Positions 48,464 through 55,455 of a DNA stretch of 64,000 nucleotides are shown here, in pieces. The first letter of the stretch is position 1. Each line of letters opens with the position of its first letter. Under the pieces are notes generated by a model. That model searched no databases, had not been told where the DNA came from, and saw only the letters and a list, made by a program, of their open reading frames with translations. Where the stretch lies: assembly GCF_031458255.1 (NCBI RefSeq), contig NZ_JAVDYC010000001.1:6023001-6087000 (forward strand). The letters are read 5' to 3'. Source of the stretch: Catenuloplanes niger (GTDB taxonomy: Bacteria > Actinomycetota > Actinomycetes > Mycobacteriales > Micromonosporaceae). The position numbers were made by a program, and so were the translations under genes.

Positions 48464-49456
48464 TCAGCGGTTGCGGGTGGCGGTTTCGTAGGCGGCGCGG
48501 GCGGCGGCCTGGGTGAGGGCGCGGTGCAGCAGGCGGGAGTCGCCGAGCATGGAGCGGAGGCGGCGTTCCAGGCCGGCGATCGGGATCAGGTTCTGCGGGG
48601 CGCGTGGGTCCTTGTAGGCGGTGGACGCGAAGCGGGGGAGGGTGACCAGGGAGAGGTCGGCCAGGGCGAAAGCGGCCGCGGGTGGCAGGTCGGTGGAGCA
48701 TTCGGCGCGGACGATGCCGGCCCAGGGGGCGCCGGGGCGGCCGGGGAGGCGCAGGTACCAGGAGTAGGCGCCCCAGGTGGTGCCGGTCAGGAAGACGGGG
48801 GAACGCTGGCCGGGCTTGAGGGAGGTGACCACGGCGGCGAGGCGTGGGGGGAGGTACTGGCGGTGCTGGGTCTTGATGTAGCCGATGGTGCGCGGGAGCT
48901 GGCGGCGGTTGCGGAGCGGACCGTCGACGACCAGCAGGTCGTCGTCGCCGGCGTCGGCGCGGGCCTCGGTGGAGACGTCGACCTCGAGGGCGGTGAGCGG
49001 GGCCTGGATGGCGGCGGGGAGTTTGTTCTGGTCGCCGCTGCCGGTGACGCGCTGGACCGTGTAGCGGATCGAGCCGGCGACCGCGTCGGCGGCGCTGGGG
49101 CTGGCGGTGAACAGGCCGCGCTGGACGCGGGCGCCGGCCAGTTCGGCGGCGCCGCGGTCGAGGTCGCAGCGGACCACGCCGGCGGCGTAGGAGGCGGCGA
49201 GGCCGGGGTAGGACGAGCCGTCGTCCTCCTCGGTCCACAGGCCGGCGTCGATCCGGCGGACGCCGTCGACCAGCAGGATCACCCGCGGTGGGCGCAGGTC
49301 CGGTGGGGGCAGGAGCGGCTGCCAGGCGTCGGACGGGACCTCCAGGTCCGCGTCGACCTGCGCGGTGCTCTGCTCGGACGGGCCGGCGAAACCACCGTCG
49401 GGCTCGATGTTCGAGCCGTAGGCCGGGTCCCACGCGTCGATGAAGTAACGGGTCAC
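48464..49456 (-). CDS. nurA: NurA-like nuclease
   Basis: A 330-residue protein with NurA-domain features. The first acidic motif is in RVILLVDGVRRIDAGLW (the V-D-G near the start of the nuclease fold), followed by SYPGLAASYAAGVVRCDL. The second is DDDLLVVDGPLRNRRQLPRT leading to IGYIKTQHRQYLPP, matching the NurA pattern D-G-x-L ... G-x-x-K. A C-terminal part (AYSWYLRLPGRPGAPW, NLIPIAGLERRLRSMLGD) is as in the family. NurA is a 5'-3' exonuclease that works inside the HerA ring. GTG 49456 overlaps the SbcC stop by 4 nt, last gene of the HerA-SbcD-SbcC-NurA operon. Overall identity to archaeal NurA is low, so the assignment rests on motifs and context. Confidence 0.8.
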   Translation of the reverse strand: MTRYFIDAWDPAYGSNIEPDGGFAGPSEQSTAQVDADLEVPSDAWQPLLPPPDLRPPRVILLVDGVRRIDAGLWTEEDDGSSYPGLAASYAAGVVRCDLDRGAAELAGARVQRGLFTASPSAADAVAGSIRYTVQRVTGSGDQNKLPAAIQAPLTALEVDVSTEARADAGDDDLLVVDGPLRNRRQLPRTIGYIKTQHRQYLPPRLAAVVTSLKPGQRSPVFLTGTTWGAYSWYLRLPGRPGAPWAGIVRAECSTDLPPAAAFALADLSLVTLPRFASTAYKDPRAPQNLIPIAGLERRLRSMLGDSRLLHRALTQAAARAAYETATRNR

Positions 49457-52407
49457 AGGCCGCTCCGGGTCACTCGCGCGCTACGGGCATCCTTGCGCAC
49501 CTCGAAGCGGACCGGGATCCGCTCGGCGAGCGCGCCGACATGGGTGACCACGCCGACCATCCGGTCGCCGCGGGCGGCCAGGTTCTCCAGCGTGGCGGCG
49601 ACGGAGTCGAGCGTGACCGCGTCCAGCGTGCCGAAGCCCTCGTCCAGCACGATCGACTCGAGGCTGGCCGCGGTGGTGGACATGCCGGCCAGCTGCTCGG
49701 AGAGCGCGAGCGCCAGGGCCAGCGACGCCTGGAACGTCTCGCCGCCGGAGAGCGTGCGCACGCCGCGCCGCAGGCCGGCGTCGTGGTGGTCGACGACCCA
49801 GAACTCGCCCTTGTCGTGCACCAGTTCGTACTGCCCGCCGGACAGTTCGCGCAGGATCCGGGAACCGCCGTCGACCAGCAGGTCCAGTGCCTCCTCCAGC
49901 AGCCAGCGCTCAAAGTTGTTAGCACGCAGGTGGCCGGCGAGCGTTTTCGCGACCCGGCCGTCGCGCTCGTGCACGGCCCGCTGCTCGCGCAGTTCGGCGG
50001 CCTGCTCGCGGCGCTCCTCGATGCGGCGCAGCGCGCCCTCGGCCCGCTCGGTCGCCACGGCCGCGGCCCGCAGGTATTCGGCCTCGCCACGCTTCGCCGG
50101 CGCGGTCAGGCCGACGGCCTGGAAAAGACCCTCGATCCGCACGTGTACGTCGTCCGCCTCGCCGCGGGCCGCCAGCAACTCGGCCTCGGCCGCGGTCCGG
50201 GCGTCCGCGCGCCGCGCGACCTGCTCCGCGGCCCAGCCGGCCAGGCCGGTCCAGGCCGCGGCCACGTCCTCCCGGTCCGGCGCGGGCGGCCCGAACGGCG
50301 CGACCGTGTCCCGTGCGGCGTCGAAGCCCTGCCAGGCCGCCCGGAGACGCTGCTCCGCGCGGTCGGCCTCGGTCTGGGCGCGGCGCTGCGCCTCCCGGGC
50401 CCGGCGGACGGCCGTGCCCGCGGCGTCCAGCCGCTTCCGGAGTGCCGCGATCCCGTCCAGTTCCCGCCGGAGCGCGTCCGGGCCGGGCGAGCCGGCGATC
50501 TTGGCGGTGGCCGCGGTGAGGCGGTGCTGGAGGTCGTCGTGGCGGGCCCGCGCGCGGTCGAGCGTCCGTTCCAGCTCCCGGGCGGCCTGCTCGCGCTCGG
50601 TGACCAGCTTCGCGGCTTGGTCGGCGGCCGCCCGCGCGCGCTTGCCCTCGGCCTCGGCCGCCGCGACCGCGGACCGCCCGGCGGCCCGCTGCGCGGCGGG
50701 ATCCGCCGGCCCGGCGCCGGCCCGGCCGGGTGCGGACCCGCCCAGGACGGCTTCACCGCGCGGCCGAGGCGCCCCCGCCCGGCCGTCCGGCCGCCCGGAG
50801 CCTTGCCCACCGCCACCGGAAATACCGGTGCCACCAGCATCGCCGGTGCCGCCGGGAATGCCTGTACCGCCAGGAATGCCGGTGCCGCCGGGAGCGCCGG
50901 TGCCGCCGGGAATGCCGGTGCCGCCGGGAGCGCCGGTGCCGCCGGGAATGCCGGTGCCGCCGGGAGCGCCGGTGCCGCCGGGAATGCCGGTGCCGCCGGG
51001 AGCGCCGGTGCCGCCGGGAATGCCGGTGCCGCCGGTGCCCGTCTCGGCGGGACCGTTCACGCCCGGCCCACCGGGACCGTTCGGTCCGTGCCGGTGGCCG
51101 AGGGCGCGGCCCGCGCCGTCGGCCGGCACGGCGTACCCCGTGGGGGTCTCGATCGGCAGTGCCGTGACGGGGTGGGCGCAGACCGGGCAGGGGTCGCCGA
51201 CCGTGAGGTGCAGGCGGAGCGCGGTGGCACGGTCGGCGTTCTGTGCGTCCTGGTAGGCCTGGCGGGCCGCGTCCAGCGCGGCGGTGGCGCGGTCGTGATC
51301 GGTGCGCGCGGCCGTGACCGCGGCCGCGGCCGCGCCGTGCTCGCGCTCGGCCGAGGCCAGCGTGCCGGTCAGCTCCGCCGCCTGCCGGGTCAGCGTGTCC
51401 GTCTCCGCGTGCGCCTCCAGCAGCAGCCGGAGCGCGGCCGGGTCGCCGCTGCCGGCCATCTCGCCGCGGACCTTCTCCTCCTGCTCCTCGGCCGTGTGCA
51501 CGGCGCGGACGGCCTCGGCCGCGGCGGCGCGGGCGTCGGCTGCCGCGCCGGCCACGGCGGCGACGTCGGCGGGCGCGCGCACGCCGCGCAGCTTGGCGAT
51601 CTCCGTGTCCAGCGTGGCGACCGCGGTGGTGGCCGCGCCGGTGCGGTCCGCGGCGGCGCGCAGGCCGGGCAGCGCGGCCTCGACCCCCTCGGCCAGCTCG
51701 ATCACCCGGTCCAGGTGGTCGGCGGCGGCCGCGAGGTGGGCGTCGTCCGTGTCGTCCAGTCCGGACAGCAGCTGGTCGACCGCGGACAGCTTGGCGTCGG
51801 CCGCGCCGGCCCGGGCCGTGGCGCGACGCTGGACCTCCTCGTAGACGCCGAGGTCGAGCAGGTTGACCAGGATCTGCTGCCGGGTCGCGGGCTTCGCGTG
51901 CAGGAAGTCGGCGAACTGCCCCTGCGGCAGCACCACGCACGTGGTGAACTGCTCGTAGGGCAGGCCGACCGCCTCCTGCACCGCCTTGTCCATCTCCGCG
52001 GGCGTGCCGGCCAGCACCTCGCCGAGGTCCTCCGGGGACAGCCCGGTGTCCAGCTTGGTCACGTCGAAGCCGCGCGGCATCAGCTGCAGCCCGGCACCGC
52101 TGGTGTTGACCCGGCCCTTGCCGTCCCGGCGGACCACGCGGGTGGCCACGTACCGCTCGTTGGCGGACTCGAAGACCAGCCGGACGCGTGCCTCGACCGC
52201 GGACGGGGAGAGCGCGTTGACGATGCCGCGGGCGGTGCCCCAGCGCGGCACCTGGCCGTACAGCGCGAACGTGATCGCGTCCAGCACCGTGGACTTGCCG
52301 GAGCCGGTCGGGCCGACCAGTGCGAAGAAGTCCGCGTCGGTGAAGTCGACCGTGGTCTGCTCGCGGAACACGGTGAACCCGGACATGTCCAGCCGCAGCG
52401 GCCTCAC
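49453..52407 (-). CDS. sbcC: SbcC/Rad50-type SMC ATPase with collagen-like insertion near the zinc hook
   Basis: A 984-residue ATPase partner of SbcD that tethers and opens DNA ends. Walker A (VGPTGSGKST, ~33), the Q-loop-type VVLPQGQFADFLHAKP, two long coiled coils separated by a CxxC zinc hook (DPCPVCAHPV, ~407), the ABC signature RTLSGGETFQASLALAL (~882) and Walker B ESIVLDEGFGTLD (~917) are all present. Unusually, residues ~455-525 next to the hook form a collagen-like Gly-X-Y run (GIP-GGT-GAP-GGT repeats). GTG 52407 overlaps the SbcD stop and its own stop overlaps the NurA start, so the three proteins are made in coupled stoichiometry. Confidence 0.95.
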   Translation of the reverse strand: MRPLRLDMSGFTVFREQTTVDFTDADFFALVGPTGSGKSTVLDAITFALYGQVPRWGTARGIVNALSPSAVEARVRLVFESANERYVATRVVRRDGKGRVNTSGAGLQLMPRGFDVTKLDTGLSPEDLGEVLAGTPAEMDKAVQEAVGLPYEQFTTCVVLPQGQFADFLHAKPATRQQILVNLLDLGVYEEVQRRATARAGAADAKLSAVDQLLSGLDDTDDAHLAAAADHLDRVIELAEGVEAALPGLRAAADRTGAATTAVATLDTEIAKLRGVRAPADVAAVAGAAADARAAAAEAVRAVHTAEEQEEKVRGEMAGSGDPAALRLLLEAHAETDTLTRQAAELTGTLASAEREHGAAAAAVTAARTDHDRATAALDAARQAYQDAQNADRATALRLHLTVGDPCPVCAHPVTALPIETPTGYAVPADGAGRALGHRHGPNGPGGPGVNGPAETGTGGTGIPGGTGAPGGTGIPGGTGAPGGTGIPGGTGAPGGTGIPGGTGAPGGTGIPGGTGIPGGTGDAGGTGISGGGGQGSGRPDGRAGAPRPRGEAVLGGSAPGRAGAGPADPAAQRAAGRSAVAAAEAEGKRARAAADQAAKLVTEREQAARELERTLDRARARHDDLQHRLTAATAKIAGSPGPDALRRELDGIAALRKRLDAAGTAVRRAREAQRRAQTEADRAEQRLRAAWQGFDAARDTVAPFGPPAPDREDVAAAWTGLAGWAAEQVARRADARTAAEAELLAARGEADDVHVRIEGLFQAVGLTAPAKRGEAEYLRAAAVATERAEGALRRIEERREQAAELREQRAVHERDGRVAKTLAGHLRANNFERWLLEEALDLLVDGGSRILRELSGGQYELVHDKGEFWVVDHHDAGLRRGVRTLSGGETFQASLALALALSEQLAGMSTTAASLESIVLDEGFGTLDAVTLDSVAATLENLAARGDRMVGVVTHVGALAERIPVRFEVRKDARSARVTRSGL
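50833..51045 (-). repeat. 18/36-bp in-frame array encoding collagen-like triplets in sbcC
   Basis: Plus-strand units GGAATGCCGGTGCCGCCG and GGAGCGCCGGTGCCGCCG alternate nearly perfectly about ten times, encoding GGTGIP and GGTGAP hexapeptides, which are Gly-X-Y triplets. Confidence 0.92.
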
Positions 52408-53570
52408 GACGCGCCTCCCGGAATCTCCTCGTAGATCTCGTCGAACAGGTCCTGCACGCCCTCGTCGTCGTGCCCGCGCACCTTCAGGTAGTCGGCGAAC
52501 AGCGTGCTCGGCGAGCGCCCGGCCCGCTGCGCCGCGGTCGGGCTGGTGCGGGTGGGCAGCATGTCCGGGTCGATGCGCACGTCCAGCGCGTTCGGCAGCA
52601 GGTCCTGGACCTCCTCGCGGAGACCGGCCCGGGGCATCTCCCGCACGTAGACGCGCAGCCAGCCGGCCGCGTCCGTGTTGCGCTCGGCGAACCGCTCGAG
52701 GTCGGGCAGCGTGCCGCGGACCGTGCGCAACGGCGTCGCGGAGGAGATCGGCACGGACCGGGGGCGGGCCGGGCGGGTCGCGGTGACCTCGACGATCGTG
52801 ACGGACGGCGTGTTCTCCTCCTCGCCGAAGTCGACCGCGAGCGGGCTGCCGGAGTAGCGGATCGGGCACGGGCCGAGGATCTGCTGGGTGCGGTGCAGGT
52901 GCCCGAGCGCCACGTAGTGCGCGGTGGACGGGAAGACACTGGCCGGCACCGCGTAGCCGAGCACGGTGTGCGCGTCCCGCTCGCCGCCGCCCAGCTTCGC
53001 GCCGACCACGGTGAGGTGGCCGGTCAGGATGTTGACCGCGCTGCGGTCGGCGAAGTCCTCGGTGAGTTTCCCGATCAGCCGGCCGATGTGGTCCGCGTAC
53101 GTCTGCTGTGCCTCGGACGCGGTCAGCTCGTACATCTCCACGGCGCGCACCGCGAACCGCTGGGAGAGGAACGGCAGCGCGACCAGCCGCCACGCCTCAC
53201 CGCCGGCCGTGGTGCCGGTGAGCACGTGCTCGGCCGCGGTCTCCCGGACCGTGCCGCGCAGCTGGATGCCGGCCGCGTCCGCCCACGGGCGCAGTGCGTC
53301 GAGCGCCGGGCCGTTGTCGTGGTTGCCGCCGATCGCCACCACCTCGGCGCCGGTCGCCCGCAGCGCGGTCAGCGCGCGGGTCACGATCCGGGTCGAGTCG
53401 GGCGTGGGCGCGGCCGTGTCGTAGAGATCGCCGGCCACGATCACCAGGTCGGGCTGCTCCCGCTGGGCGATCTCGACCAGGTCGCGGAGCACGTTGATGT
53501 GCTCCTCCACCCGGGTGTGTCCCTTGAGGACCTTCCCGACGTGCCAGTCCGAGGTGTGCAGGATCTTCAT
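52404..53570 (-). CDS. sbcD: SbcD/Mre11-type DNA nuclease
   Basis: A 388-residue calcineurin-like metallo-phosphoesterase nuclease, partner of SbcC. All five phosphoesterase motifs are visible: ILHTSDWHVGK, VIVAGDLYDT, IGGNHDNGPA, NILTGHLTV and ALGHLHRTQ. The capping domain and a C-terminal SbcC-binding tail (LFADYLKVRGHDDEGVQDLF) follow. ATG 53570 has GGAAG five nt upstream and lies 10 bp after the HerA stop. Its stop overlaps the SbcC start (GTGA). Confidence 0.96.
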   Translation of the reverse strand: MKILHTSDWHVGKVLKGHTRVEEHINVLRDLVEIAQREQPDLVIVAGDLYDTAAPTPDSTRIVTRALTALRATGAEVVAIGGNHDNGPALDALRPWADAAGIQLRGTVRETAAEHVLTGTTAGGEAWRLVALPFLSQRFAVRAVEMYELTASEAQQTYADHIGRLIGKLTEDFADRSAVNILTGHLTVVGAKLGGGERDAHTVLGYAVPASVFPSTAHYVALGHLHRTQQILGPCPIRYSGSPLAVDFGEEENTPSVTIVEVTATRPARPRSVPISSATPLRTVRGTLPDLERFAERNTDAAGWLRVYVREMPRAGLREEVQDLLPNALDVRIDPDMLPTRTSPTAAQRAGRSPSTLFADYLKVRGHDDEGVQDLFDEIYEEIPGGAS

Positions 53571-53580
53571 GTCGGCTTCC

Positions 53581-55344
53581 TCAGAAGGGGATGTCGTCGT
53601 CGGAGATGCGGGAGCCGGCACCGGACCGGCCGCCGACGACCGCGAACGGGTCGGCGGACGAGACGATCGAGCGCAGCGTGCCGGTGGGCGCGGCACCGGC
53701 CTCGGAGACGCGGGTGGCCCAGGCCGGGAACGGGAACTCCACGCAGAGCGGGACCGGGATGTCCGGCTGGTTGACGAACATGGTGCCGGGCTTGGCCAGC
53801 AGCACCCGTTGCCGTTGCGCGGGCGGGAGGAAACCGTACTCCGGGCGGCCGGCCTCGGCCGGGTCGAGCCGGCCGACCACGCGGATCGCGGAGTTCGTCA
53901 CGATGCGGCGCTCGACCTCGCTGGCGGTCTGCTGCGCGCCGATCAGGATGACGCCGAGCGACCGGCCGCGTTCCGCGATGTCGAGCAGCACCTCCTTGAT
54001 CGGTGAAGTGCCGTCCCGGGGCGCGTACTTGTTCAGCTCGTCCAGCACCACGAAGAGCAGCGGCTTGGCGGTGCCGGCCTTCTCCTTGCGCTCGAACTCG
54101 CTCTTCAGCGTCACGCCGACCACGAACCGCTGCGCGCGGTCCGGCAGGTTGTGCAGGTCCACCACGGTGACCTGGGCGCTCTCCGACGTGTTGATCGAGT
54201 GCGGCCGGCGCTGGGCCAGGTCGCCGCGGATCAGCCGGGACAGGTCCTTCTTGCTGGAGATCAGGCGGCGGGCGAACGCGTTCGTCGTGCCGATGCCGAC
54301 CGCGGAGCCGGCCCAGTCGCGCCGGGTGTCCTCGTCGCTGAGCTGCTCGACCAGGAAGTCGACCAGGTCGCCGTAGGAACCGATCCGCTTGCCCTGGACG
54401 GAGATCCCGCCCTCGGCCGGCACCGCGACGCGCTGCAGGTGCGCGGTGACCGCGTGGACGACCATCGTGTACTGCTGGCGCTCGTCGTCCGCGTCGGCGA
54501 ACACGTACGGCAGGAGGCCGGTCTCGCAGAACTCGGCGAGCGTCCAGTAGAACGCGTCCACCCCGGTCAGCCGGCTGCTCACGTCCGGCGTGCCGGAGGG
54601 GTCGCCGATCCGCGGCGGCGCGTAGACCCGGACGTCCGCGAACGCGTCCGCGGGCAGGCCGAGCTTGCCGTACGCCTCGGTGGTCCGCTCGTCCAGCCGG
54701 GTGTTCGGGTGGTCGAGGAAGAGCAGATCCTCGCCCTTGACGTTGAAGATGAGCGCCTTGGAGTTGACGCTCTCCGCGCCGAGCACGCCGGAGCGGAACA
54801 CGGAGTAGAGCAGGAACGTGGCGAAGCTGGTCTTGGTGGCCACGCCGGAGATGCCGGAGATCGAGACGTGTGCGCCGCGCGTGCCGTCCAGGAAGTCCGC
54901 GTTCAGGTAGACCGGGACGCCGTCGCGGCCGGACCCCATCGGGATCGGCCGCTCCATCCGGTCGAAGTGCAGCGCCTGCGCGCGGGCGACGCCCTCGGCG
55001 CGGAACACCGGCGCGCCCGGGGCCGGCGGCACGTAGAGCTCCGGGTCGACGCGGGTGGTGGTGATCTCCGCCGCCTCCTGGACGAGCGCGGGGAGCGTGC
55101 CCTCCGCGATCGCGAAGACGTCGGAGTCGAACTGCGCGCCCTCGTGCCGCGCGCGGACCTGGGTGACCACGCCCGCGATCGTCACCGGCTCGCGGTCCGG
55201 CAGCTCGCGCCGGGTCACCACCACGTCGTCGAGCTGCAGGTAGGCCCCCGGGGTGACGGCGGTCCAGAACTGCAGCGGCGTGGCGTCGGCGGTGCCCAGC
55301 ACGCGGCCGACGGCGGGGCCCGGGTCCGAGGGGTCTACTGGCAC
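53581..55344 (-). CDS. herA: HerA-like hexameric DNA translocase ATPase
   Basis: A ~587-residue HerA/FtsK-superfamily ATPase (DUF87 type). An N-terminal HAS-barrel (PAVGRVLGTADATPLQFWTA, IAGVVTQVRARHEGAQFDSD) is followed by the Walker A variant ISGISGVATKTSFATFLLYS (~160), a long insertion, Walker B PLLFVVLDELNKYAPRDG (~430) and the conserved ERGRSLGVILIGAQQTASEV sensor region. The protein ends in an acidic DDDIPF tail, possibly a partner-binding or SSB-like peptide. GTG 55344 is chosen because the upstream codons encode non-conserved residues and lie in the DnaA-box leader; a start up to 55422 is possible. In archaea HerA drives NurA and cooperates with Mre11-Rad50. Confidence 0.88.
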   Translation of the reverse strand: MPVDPSDPGPAVGRVLGTADATPLQFWTAVTPGAYLQLDDVVVTRRELPDREPVTIAGVVTQVRARHEGAQFDSDVFAIAEGTLPALVQEAAEITTTRVDPELYVPPAPGAPVFRAEGVARAQALHFDRMERPIPMGSGRDGVPVYLNADFLDGTRGAHVSISGISGVATKTSFATFLLYSVFRSGVLGAESVNSKALIFNVKGEDLLFLDHPNTRLDERTTEAYGKLGLPADAFADVRVYAPPRIGDPSGTPDVSSRLTGVDAFYWTLAEFCETGLLPYVFADADDERQQYTMVVHAVTAHLQRVAVPAEGGISVQGKRIGSYGDLVDFLVEQLSDEDTRRDWAGSAVGIGTTNAFARRLISSKKDLSRLIRGDLAQRRPHSINTSESAQVTVVDLHNLPDRAQRFVVGVTLKSEFERKEKAGTAKPLLFVVLDELNKYAPRDGTSPIKEVLLDIAERGRSLGVILIGAQQTASEVERRIVTNSAIRVVGRLDPAEAGRPEYGFLPPAQRQRVLLAKPGTMFVNQPDIPVPLCVEFPFPAWATRVSEAGAAPTGTLRSIVSSADPFAVVGGRSGAGSRISDDDIPF

Positions 55345-55414
55345 CCGATCATCGTGCCCCACGGGTACGACAACAACGTAAGCCACGCCGTGGTTGGCAC
55401 CACCTGTCCCCACG

Positions 55415-55455
55415 TTATCCACAAGATCTTGTGGTTACCCACAGGGTTATCCACA
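55415..55455. promoter_or_regulatory. DnaA-box cluster with 16-bp palindrome in the herA leader
   Basis: Perfect TTATCCACA at 55415-55423 and 55447-55455 and TTACCCACA at 55435-55443 lie on one strand. A weaker inverted match (TAACCACAA) is at 55429-55437. The palindrome CCACAAGATCTTGTGG spans 55419-55434. All lie in the 123-bp gap between ribD-like stop and herA start. Confidence 0.8.

Follow-up and report, generated by a model that had tools for sequence, protein, structure and literature searches.

The locus and its four proteins

The window analysed here is a 64,000-nucleotide stretch of the genome of Catenuloplanes niger, which consists of one contig of 9.74 Mb. Four co-oriented genes lie on its minus strand: herA (55344-53581), encoding a Deinococcus-type HerA/FtsK-family translocase of 587 aa; sbcD (53570-52404), encoding a Mre11-type nuclease of 388 aa; sbcC (52407-49453), encoding a Rad50-type ATPase of 984 aa with a CPVC zinc hook; and nurA (49456-48464), encoding a predicted bacterial-type NurA nuclease of 330 aa. 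A gap of 10 bp separates the herA stop codon (TGA, 53583-53581) from the sbcD ATG, which starts at 53570, while the two following junctions each share the 4 nt GTGA, formed by the sbcD TGA (52406-52404) with the sbcC GTG (52407-52405) and by the sbcC TGA (49455-49453) with the nurA GTG (49456-49454). The herA-sbcD-sbcC-nurA operon had been proposed in a sequence-only reading of this DNA, and it is confirmed by the frames and junctions as read in the sequence; the motifs quoted in that reading (GISGVATKT, VVLDE, LLVDGVR and VVDGPLRNR...GYIK) are all found in the translations. The herA frame has an alternative upstream start at 55422, and the start at 55344 chosen in the earlier reading is favoured because a promoter-like motif, described below, ends at 55351.

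HerA did not exceed the cut-off of any Pfam model. Searched against the PDB, its profile retrieved Deinococcus HerA (7f6d_B) with an E value of 3.1e-185, the next match being at 0.0014. The alignment is nearly full-length and includes the N-terminal HAS-barrel region (541 of 578 positions, residues 12-601 of 7f6d_B). The Walker A, Walker B and trans-acting arginine residues are present, and K171, T172, D435, E436 and R461 are invariant in the 159 ungapped rows of 162. In the alignment K171 and D435/E436 correspond to K175 and D487/E488 of the Deinococcus protein, mutation of which impairs that enzyme (PMC9960219). The unusual Walker A motif GISGVATKT is common to the Catenuloplanes and Deinococcus proteins, and in the Deinococcus crystal K175 and T176 touch phosphate and Mg (PMC9960219). 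The predicted model of HerA is poor (pLDDT 56.5), which we count against the role proposed below.

SbcD matches the Pfam models Metallophos and SbcD_C above their cut-offs, its phosphoesterase motifs can be read by eye, and it is the only match for SbcD in its own genome (E <= 0.001). SbcC exceeds the cut-offs of AAA_23, SMC_N and SbcC_Walker_B, and the zinc hook, an LSGGE signature and an LDE Walker B motif were read by eye. Its best NCBIfam model is TIGR00618 (sbcc) with 254 bits, under the cut-off of 478.5, and the Rad50 models gave at most 55.8 bits, far under the TIGR00618 score. Within sbcC, at 50812-51035, an 18/36 bp tandem repeat encodes a collagen-like GGTGIPGGTGAP stretch adjoining the zinc hook; this repeat is absent in four genomes of the same genus, whose linkers vary in length and sequence.

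As a single sequence the 330-aa protein scored 16.4 bits with the Pfam NurA model, below its cut-off of 21, and the same model found no match in the genome at E <= 0.001. A profile built from an alignment of 15 sequences and searched against the PDB retrieved Deinococcus NurA (7f6d_H, E 3.4e-37) and Thermotoga TM1739 (1zup, E 1.3e-10), with the next-best matches only at E 0.44. The AlphaFold model (pLDDT 85.4, pTM 0.84) is predicted to have the NurA (RNase H-like) fold; the best Foldseek matches are 7f6d_G and 1zup, and the superposition on 7f6d_G is loose (E 6e-17, TM 0.65, rmsd 7.8). Four residues are invariant in the ungapped rows of 175 aligned sequences: D64 (163/163), D178 (173/173), K195 (175/175) and R285 (174/174). 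By alignment D64, K195 and R285 correspond to D53, K201 and R309 of the Deinococcus enzyme, and mutation of any of these three abolishes its activity (PMC9960219). The assignment of this protein to NurA, first made from its motifs, is therefore upheld by the structure prediction and profile search that had been suggested as checks, which found both the fold and the homology, and by catalytic residues that are invariant wherever they are aligned.

Upstream region and candidate promoter

A promoter-like motif, TTGTCGTAC-N8-CACGAT, is located on the minus strand at 55351..55373, 6 bp upstream of the herA GTG, so that the mRNA would be almost leaderless if this site is used. It resembles the RecA-NDp promoter of PafBC, the consensus of which we take to be TTGTCRGTG-N8-TANNNT, and 8 of the 12 scored positions of the site fit this consensus. 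We defined a core pattern as TGTC plus the A and T of the -10 element at fixed spacing. Of 82 upstream regions from the family (85 less three that were too short; the regions are related and the counts not independent), 39 contained it. The same pattern occurred in 37 of 1640 shuffled sequences and in 50 of 1620 randomly drawn pieces, and when the family regions were grouped into sequence clusters 17 of the 42 had it. Its absence from the other 43 of the 82 regions counts against the preferred reading. With the full consensus, best scores rose above the background in just the two highest bins, where 12 of 82 regions scored 10 or 11 and about 0.5 were expected. The exact consensus occurs three times in the genome, against once for a reversed control pattern, and one of the three sites precedes a gene read by eye as radA-like. 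The fit of only 8 positions at the window site, the restriction to two bins and these exact-match counts likewise weigh against the preferred reading. PafBC acts in the DNA-damage response and its regulon includes AdnAB and RecBCD (PMC6789036, PMC8223512). From the candidate promoter upstream of herA we infer that the operon may be under PafBC control.

Control by LexA was considered and rejected, since the best SOS-box match in the window carries mismatches at 5 of 12 positions and the 82 family regions resemble 810 random pieces. Further upstream of herA, at 55415-55455, there is a cluster of sites that we take to be DnaA-box-like. Two exact copies of TTATCCACA lie at 55455-55447 and 55423-55415, where the minus strand reads TGTGGATAA, and a third, near copy is at 55443-55435; the cluster is partly kept in Catenuloplanes japonicus (locus L001). 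As a trait of the family, DnaA-box control was discarded: among 15 upstream regions exact boxes occur only in the window and in L001, and boxes with a single mismatch in L006, L008 and L009.

Distribution, gene order and relation to known systems

A NurA protein search of genome contigs gave 14 loci, the nearest being that of C. japonicus with an 87% identical NurA, and all 14 have the order herA-sbcD-sbcC-nurA (HDCN, each gene being denoted by H, D, C or N, so that NHDC has nurA first). According to Pfam the operon of the window is flanked by a RibD-like and a glycosylase-like gene; the former lies upstream in 11 and the latter downstream in 10 of the 14 loci, at varying distance and orientation. 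In the Micromonosporaceae NurA was found in 98 of 101 genomes (88 of the 89 good ones) and HerA in 100 of 101. NurA occurs once per genome, with two adjoining pieces in G396. The genes are arranged as HDCN on one strand in 84 of 97 family neighbourhoods, a set that shares some genomes with the 14 loci. Among the 13 exceptions a contig end falls inside the stretch in eight, one of which (L107) continues for 1.8 kb after sbcD with no herA before it ends; in the other five (L109, L117, L121, L136 and L137) herA lies farther upstream on the same strand, which counts against the preferred reading. The linkage in close relatives on which the sequence-only reading depended is thus found, and the four-gene set is core in Micromonosporaceae.

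Among 396 genomes of the phylum NurA matches were obtained in 84 and HerA matches, some of them weak, in 131. All 84 come from the genome itself, the same family or the same phylum, and no NurA was found in the genomes of the same order or class outside the family (at least 36 of the 396), despite which the four-gene set is present on a Streptomyces plasmid and in Nonomuraea. Leaving aside the window genome and G204, which belongs to the family set, 82 neighbourhoods of the phylum showed the order NHDC in 37 cases and HDCN in 21, in several of which herA is 1 to 14 kb from sbcD; the others were NH (9), NHD (6), HDC (3), N (2), CN, DCN and HD (1 each) and none of these (1). On a 90-row HerA tree HDCN required 2 changes (shuffled mean 28.1) and NHDC 6 (28.9), and with so few changes gene order appears to follow descent; the tree was built by a quick method, with long-branch warnings, from family loci thinned to every sixth and without HerA stretches under 450 aa.

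Several individual loci depart from these arrangements. In L166 and L168 herA precedes sbcD on the same strand by about 11 and 14 kb, and in L155 (13253-14852) three pieces of herA lie upstream of sbcD-sbcC-nurA, either because the gene has decayed or because the assembly contains errors. A HerA group that is only distantly related (about 30% identical; L150, L151 and L224-L231, family f18) has a nurA-like gene nearby and often an sbcD-like gene further down, and its PDDEXK_1 matches are often missing or weak.

Four records of a plasmid collection match NurA. A Streptomyces plasmid (L235, 699-14476) carries a complete HDCN set with an ImmA/IrrE metallopeptidase gene upstream and helicase and restriction endonuclease genes downstream, a neighbourhood which is possibly a defence-like context. 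A conjugative plasmid of the cyanobacterium Sphaerospermopsis carries NHDC, a Nostoc plasmid has nurA-herA at the edge of the record, and an 11.85 Mb Nonomuraea record labelled 'plasmid', which is probably a chromosome, has HDCN. In two annotated plasmid records NurA is labelled 'hypothetical protein', and HerA is given either that label or 'ATP-binding protein', so surveys by gene name would miss the operon.

In Pyrococcus the gene order is likewise herA-mre11-rad50-nurA. The Catenuloplanes HerA scored 13.7 bits, against a cut-off of 970, with the NCBIfam repair-helicase HerA model NF040819, which we take to be archaeal. That score, the Deinococcus and Thermotoga matches and the low Rad50 scores led us to reject an archaeal type for the proteins. 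The description of the operon as archaeal-style consequently stands for gene content, four linked and co-oriented genes, and fails for ancestry, HerA and NurA being of the Deinococcus type and SbcC scoring best with a bacterial model. In Sulfolobus and other thermophiles the same four activities are encoded in one operon (PMC4351679, PMC2288612), and all four genes are essential in Sulfolobus islandicus (PMC4351679); in contrast, the Catenuloplanes proteins are of bacterial types and an AdnAB-like enzyme is also encoded in the genome. The closest solved relatives that we found are NurA-HerA of Deinococcus radiodurans (7f6d, PMC9960219), which have the same catalytic residues. Their genes are treated as a two-gene operon, and the Deinococcus-Thermus phylum is said to lack RecBCD/AddAB (PMC9960219). 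In Oceanithermus profundus, of the Thermales, sbcD and sbcC lie downstream of hepA (PMC5448004), so that the linked bacterial set already has a printed precedent; this cluster, a bacterial herA linked to sbcD-sbcC, resembles the NHDC order of other actinobacterial lineages, whereas in Catenuloplanes nurA is last. Among the papers listed in literature searches, no title or abstract opening describes an actinobacterial version of the operon, and Iyer 2004 and Constantinesco 2004 may mention bacterial clusters. We regard the four-gene set as a genuine and conserved bacterial counterpart of a machine that is already known, and the mechanism proposed for it below is carried over from homologues.

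Proposed role of the operon

The sequence-only reading had suggested that the set may be a complete repair or defence machine distinct from AdnAB/RecBCD. Replacement of AdnAB was considered and rejected, since adjacent frames with UvrD and PDDEXK domains, an AdnAB-like pair, lie near 5.23 Mb of the same genome and coexist with the operon; no match to RecC was found in this genome. PF12705 is positive in 363 of the 396 genomes and does not separate those with from those without AdnAB-type enzymes. For mycobacteria, PMC8223512 names RecBCD and AdnAB as the two principal complexes that resect ends.

The four genes are identified, their catalytic residues are intact, they are tightly spaced and their linkage is conserved. 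We propose that they encode a machine for processing DNA ends with a housekeeping role, SbcCD-HerA-NurA, acting beside AdnAB, and give this proposal a probability of about 0.77. SbcCD (Mre11-Rad50) would bind and open blocked or hairpin ends, a HerA hexamer would thread the duplex and pump the DNA into a NurA dimer, and NurA would cut the 5' strand to leave a 3' single-stranded tail for RecA. Such a machine would work alongside AdnAB instead of replacing it, and DNA damage would probably induce it through the candidate PafBC-type promoter. The end-resection role suggested in the earlier reading is likely by homology to Deinococcus and from the intact catalytic residues; a physical HerA-NurA complex and its resection activity would follow from the Deinococcus work, and the hand-over from SbcCD to HerA-NurA is suggested by the operon arrangement. 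In Deinococcus loss of nurA or herA lowers intermolecular recombination tenfold (PMC5448004). Deleting nurA or herA in Deinococcus and Thermus has a modest effect on radiation phenotypes or even improves them (PMC9960219, PMC5448004); this and the Sulfolobus immunoprecipitation data discussed next count against the proposal.

The four genes could instead form two separate units, with SbcCD dealing with hairpins and palindromes and HerA-NurA with another DNA task, held together mainly through shared regulation. We consider this unlikely, although several observations fit it: nurA switches sides between the HDCN and NHDC orders, herA is displaced in the five family neighbourhoods mentioned above, Thermus nurA-hepA sits among metabolic genes and has no sbcDC beside it in the account of PMC5448004, and immunoprecipitation in Sulfolobus showed no interaction of NurA with the other three proteins (PMC2288612). 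Against it stand the persistence of the four-gene linkage in both gene orders and in HerA clades that diverge from one another, and an interaction between Mre11 and HerA in Sulfolobus (PMC2288612).

Still less probable is a role in defence against phages or plasmids, in which HerA-NurA would degrade invading linear DNA with SbcCD as the sensor; defence had also been entertained in the sequence-only reading. The NurA model weakly matches chain 8wfd_G of TdpAB, presumably a defence complex (E 7e-4). HerA gave six PADLOC matches, all of them partial and the best, mad8, weak (E 1.2e-8), and it reached 15.9 bits, against a cut-off of 850, with the curated anti-phage HerA model NF042944. Defence complexes that combine an ATPase with a nuclease and contain HerA have been published (PMC11291478), and complete sets occur on the Streptomyces plasmid, beside the ImmA/IrrE, helicase and restriction genes, and on the conjugative cyanobacterial plasmid. 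However, the operon contains the only SbcD match of the genome, its RibD-like and glycosylase-like neighbours are conserved, and the 50,697 phage records searched at E <= 1e-5 contained no NurA match. NurA and HerA are moreover near-universal in the family, with one NurA per genome, and this speaks against defence as the task of the chromosomal copies; the plasmid copies make it possible for the mobile ones.

Beyond the end-processing role itself, we tentatively put forward a more specific picture, which we hold possible but somewhat doubtful. A physically coupled SbcCD-HerA-NurA holoenzyme may constitute a core end-resection pathway of this large family, damage-inducible through PafBC and parallel to AdnAB, with a shift between nurA first and nurA last within one operon, the nurA-last form having reached the archaeal order by convergence, and with the set also carried on plasmids. 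The operon raises the questions of how SbcCD is coupled to HerA-NurA and how labour is divided with AdnAB. The Micromonosporaceae are antibiotic producers and, with the set core to the family, they would allow the link between Mre11-Rad50 and HerA-NurA to be tested in culturable bacteria, with AdnAB present or absent.
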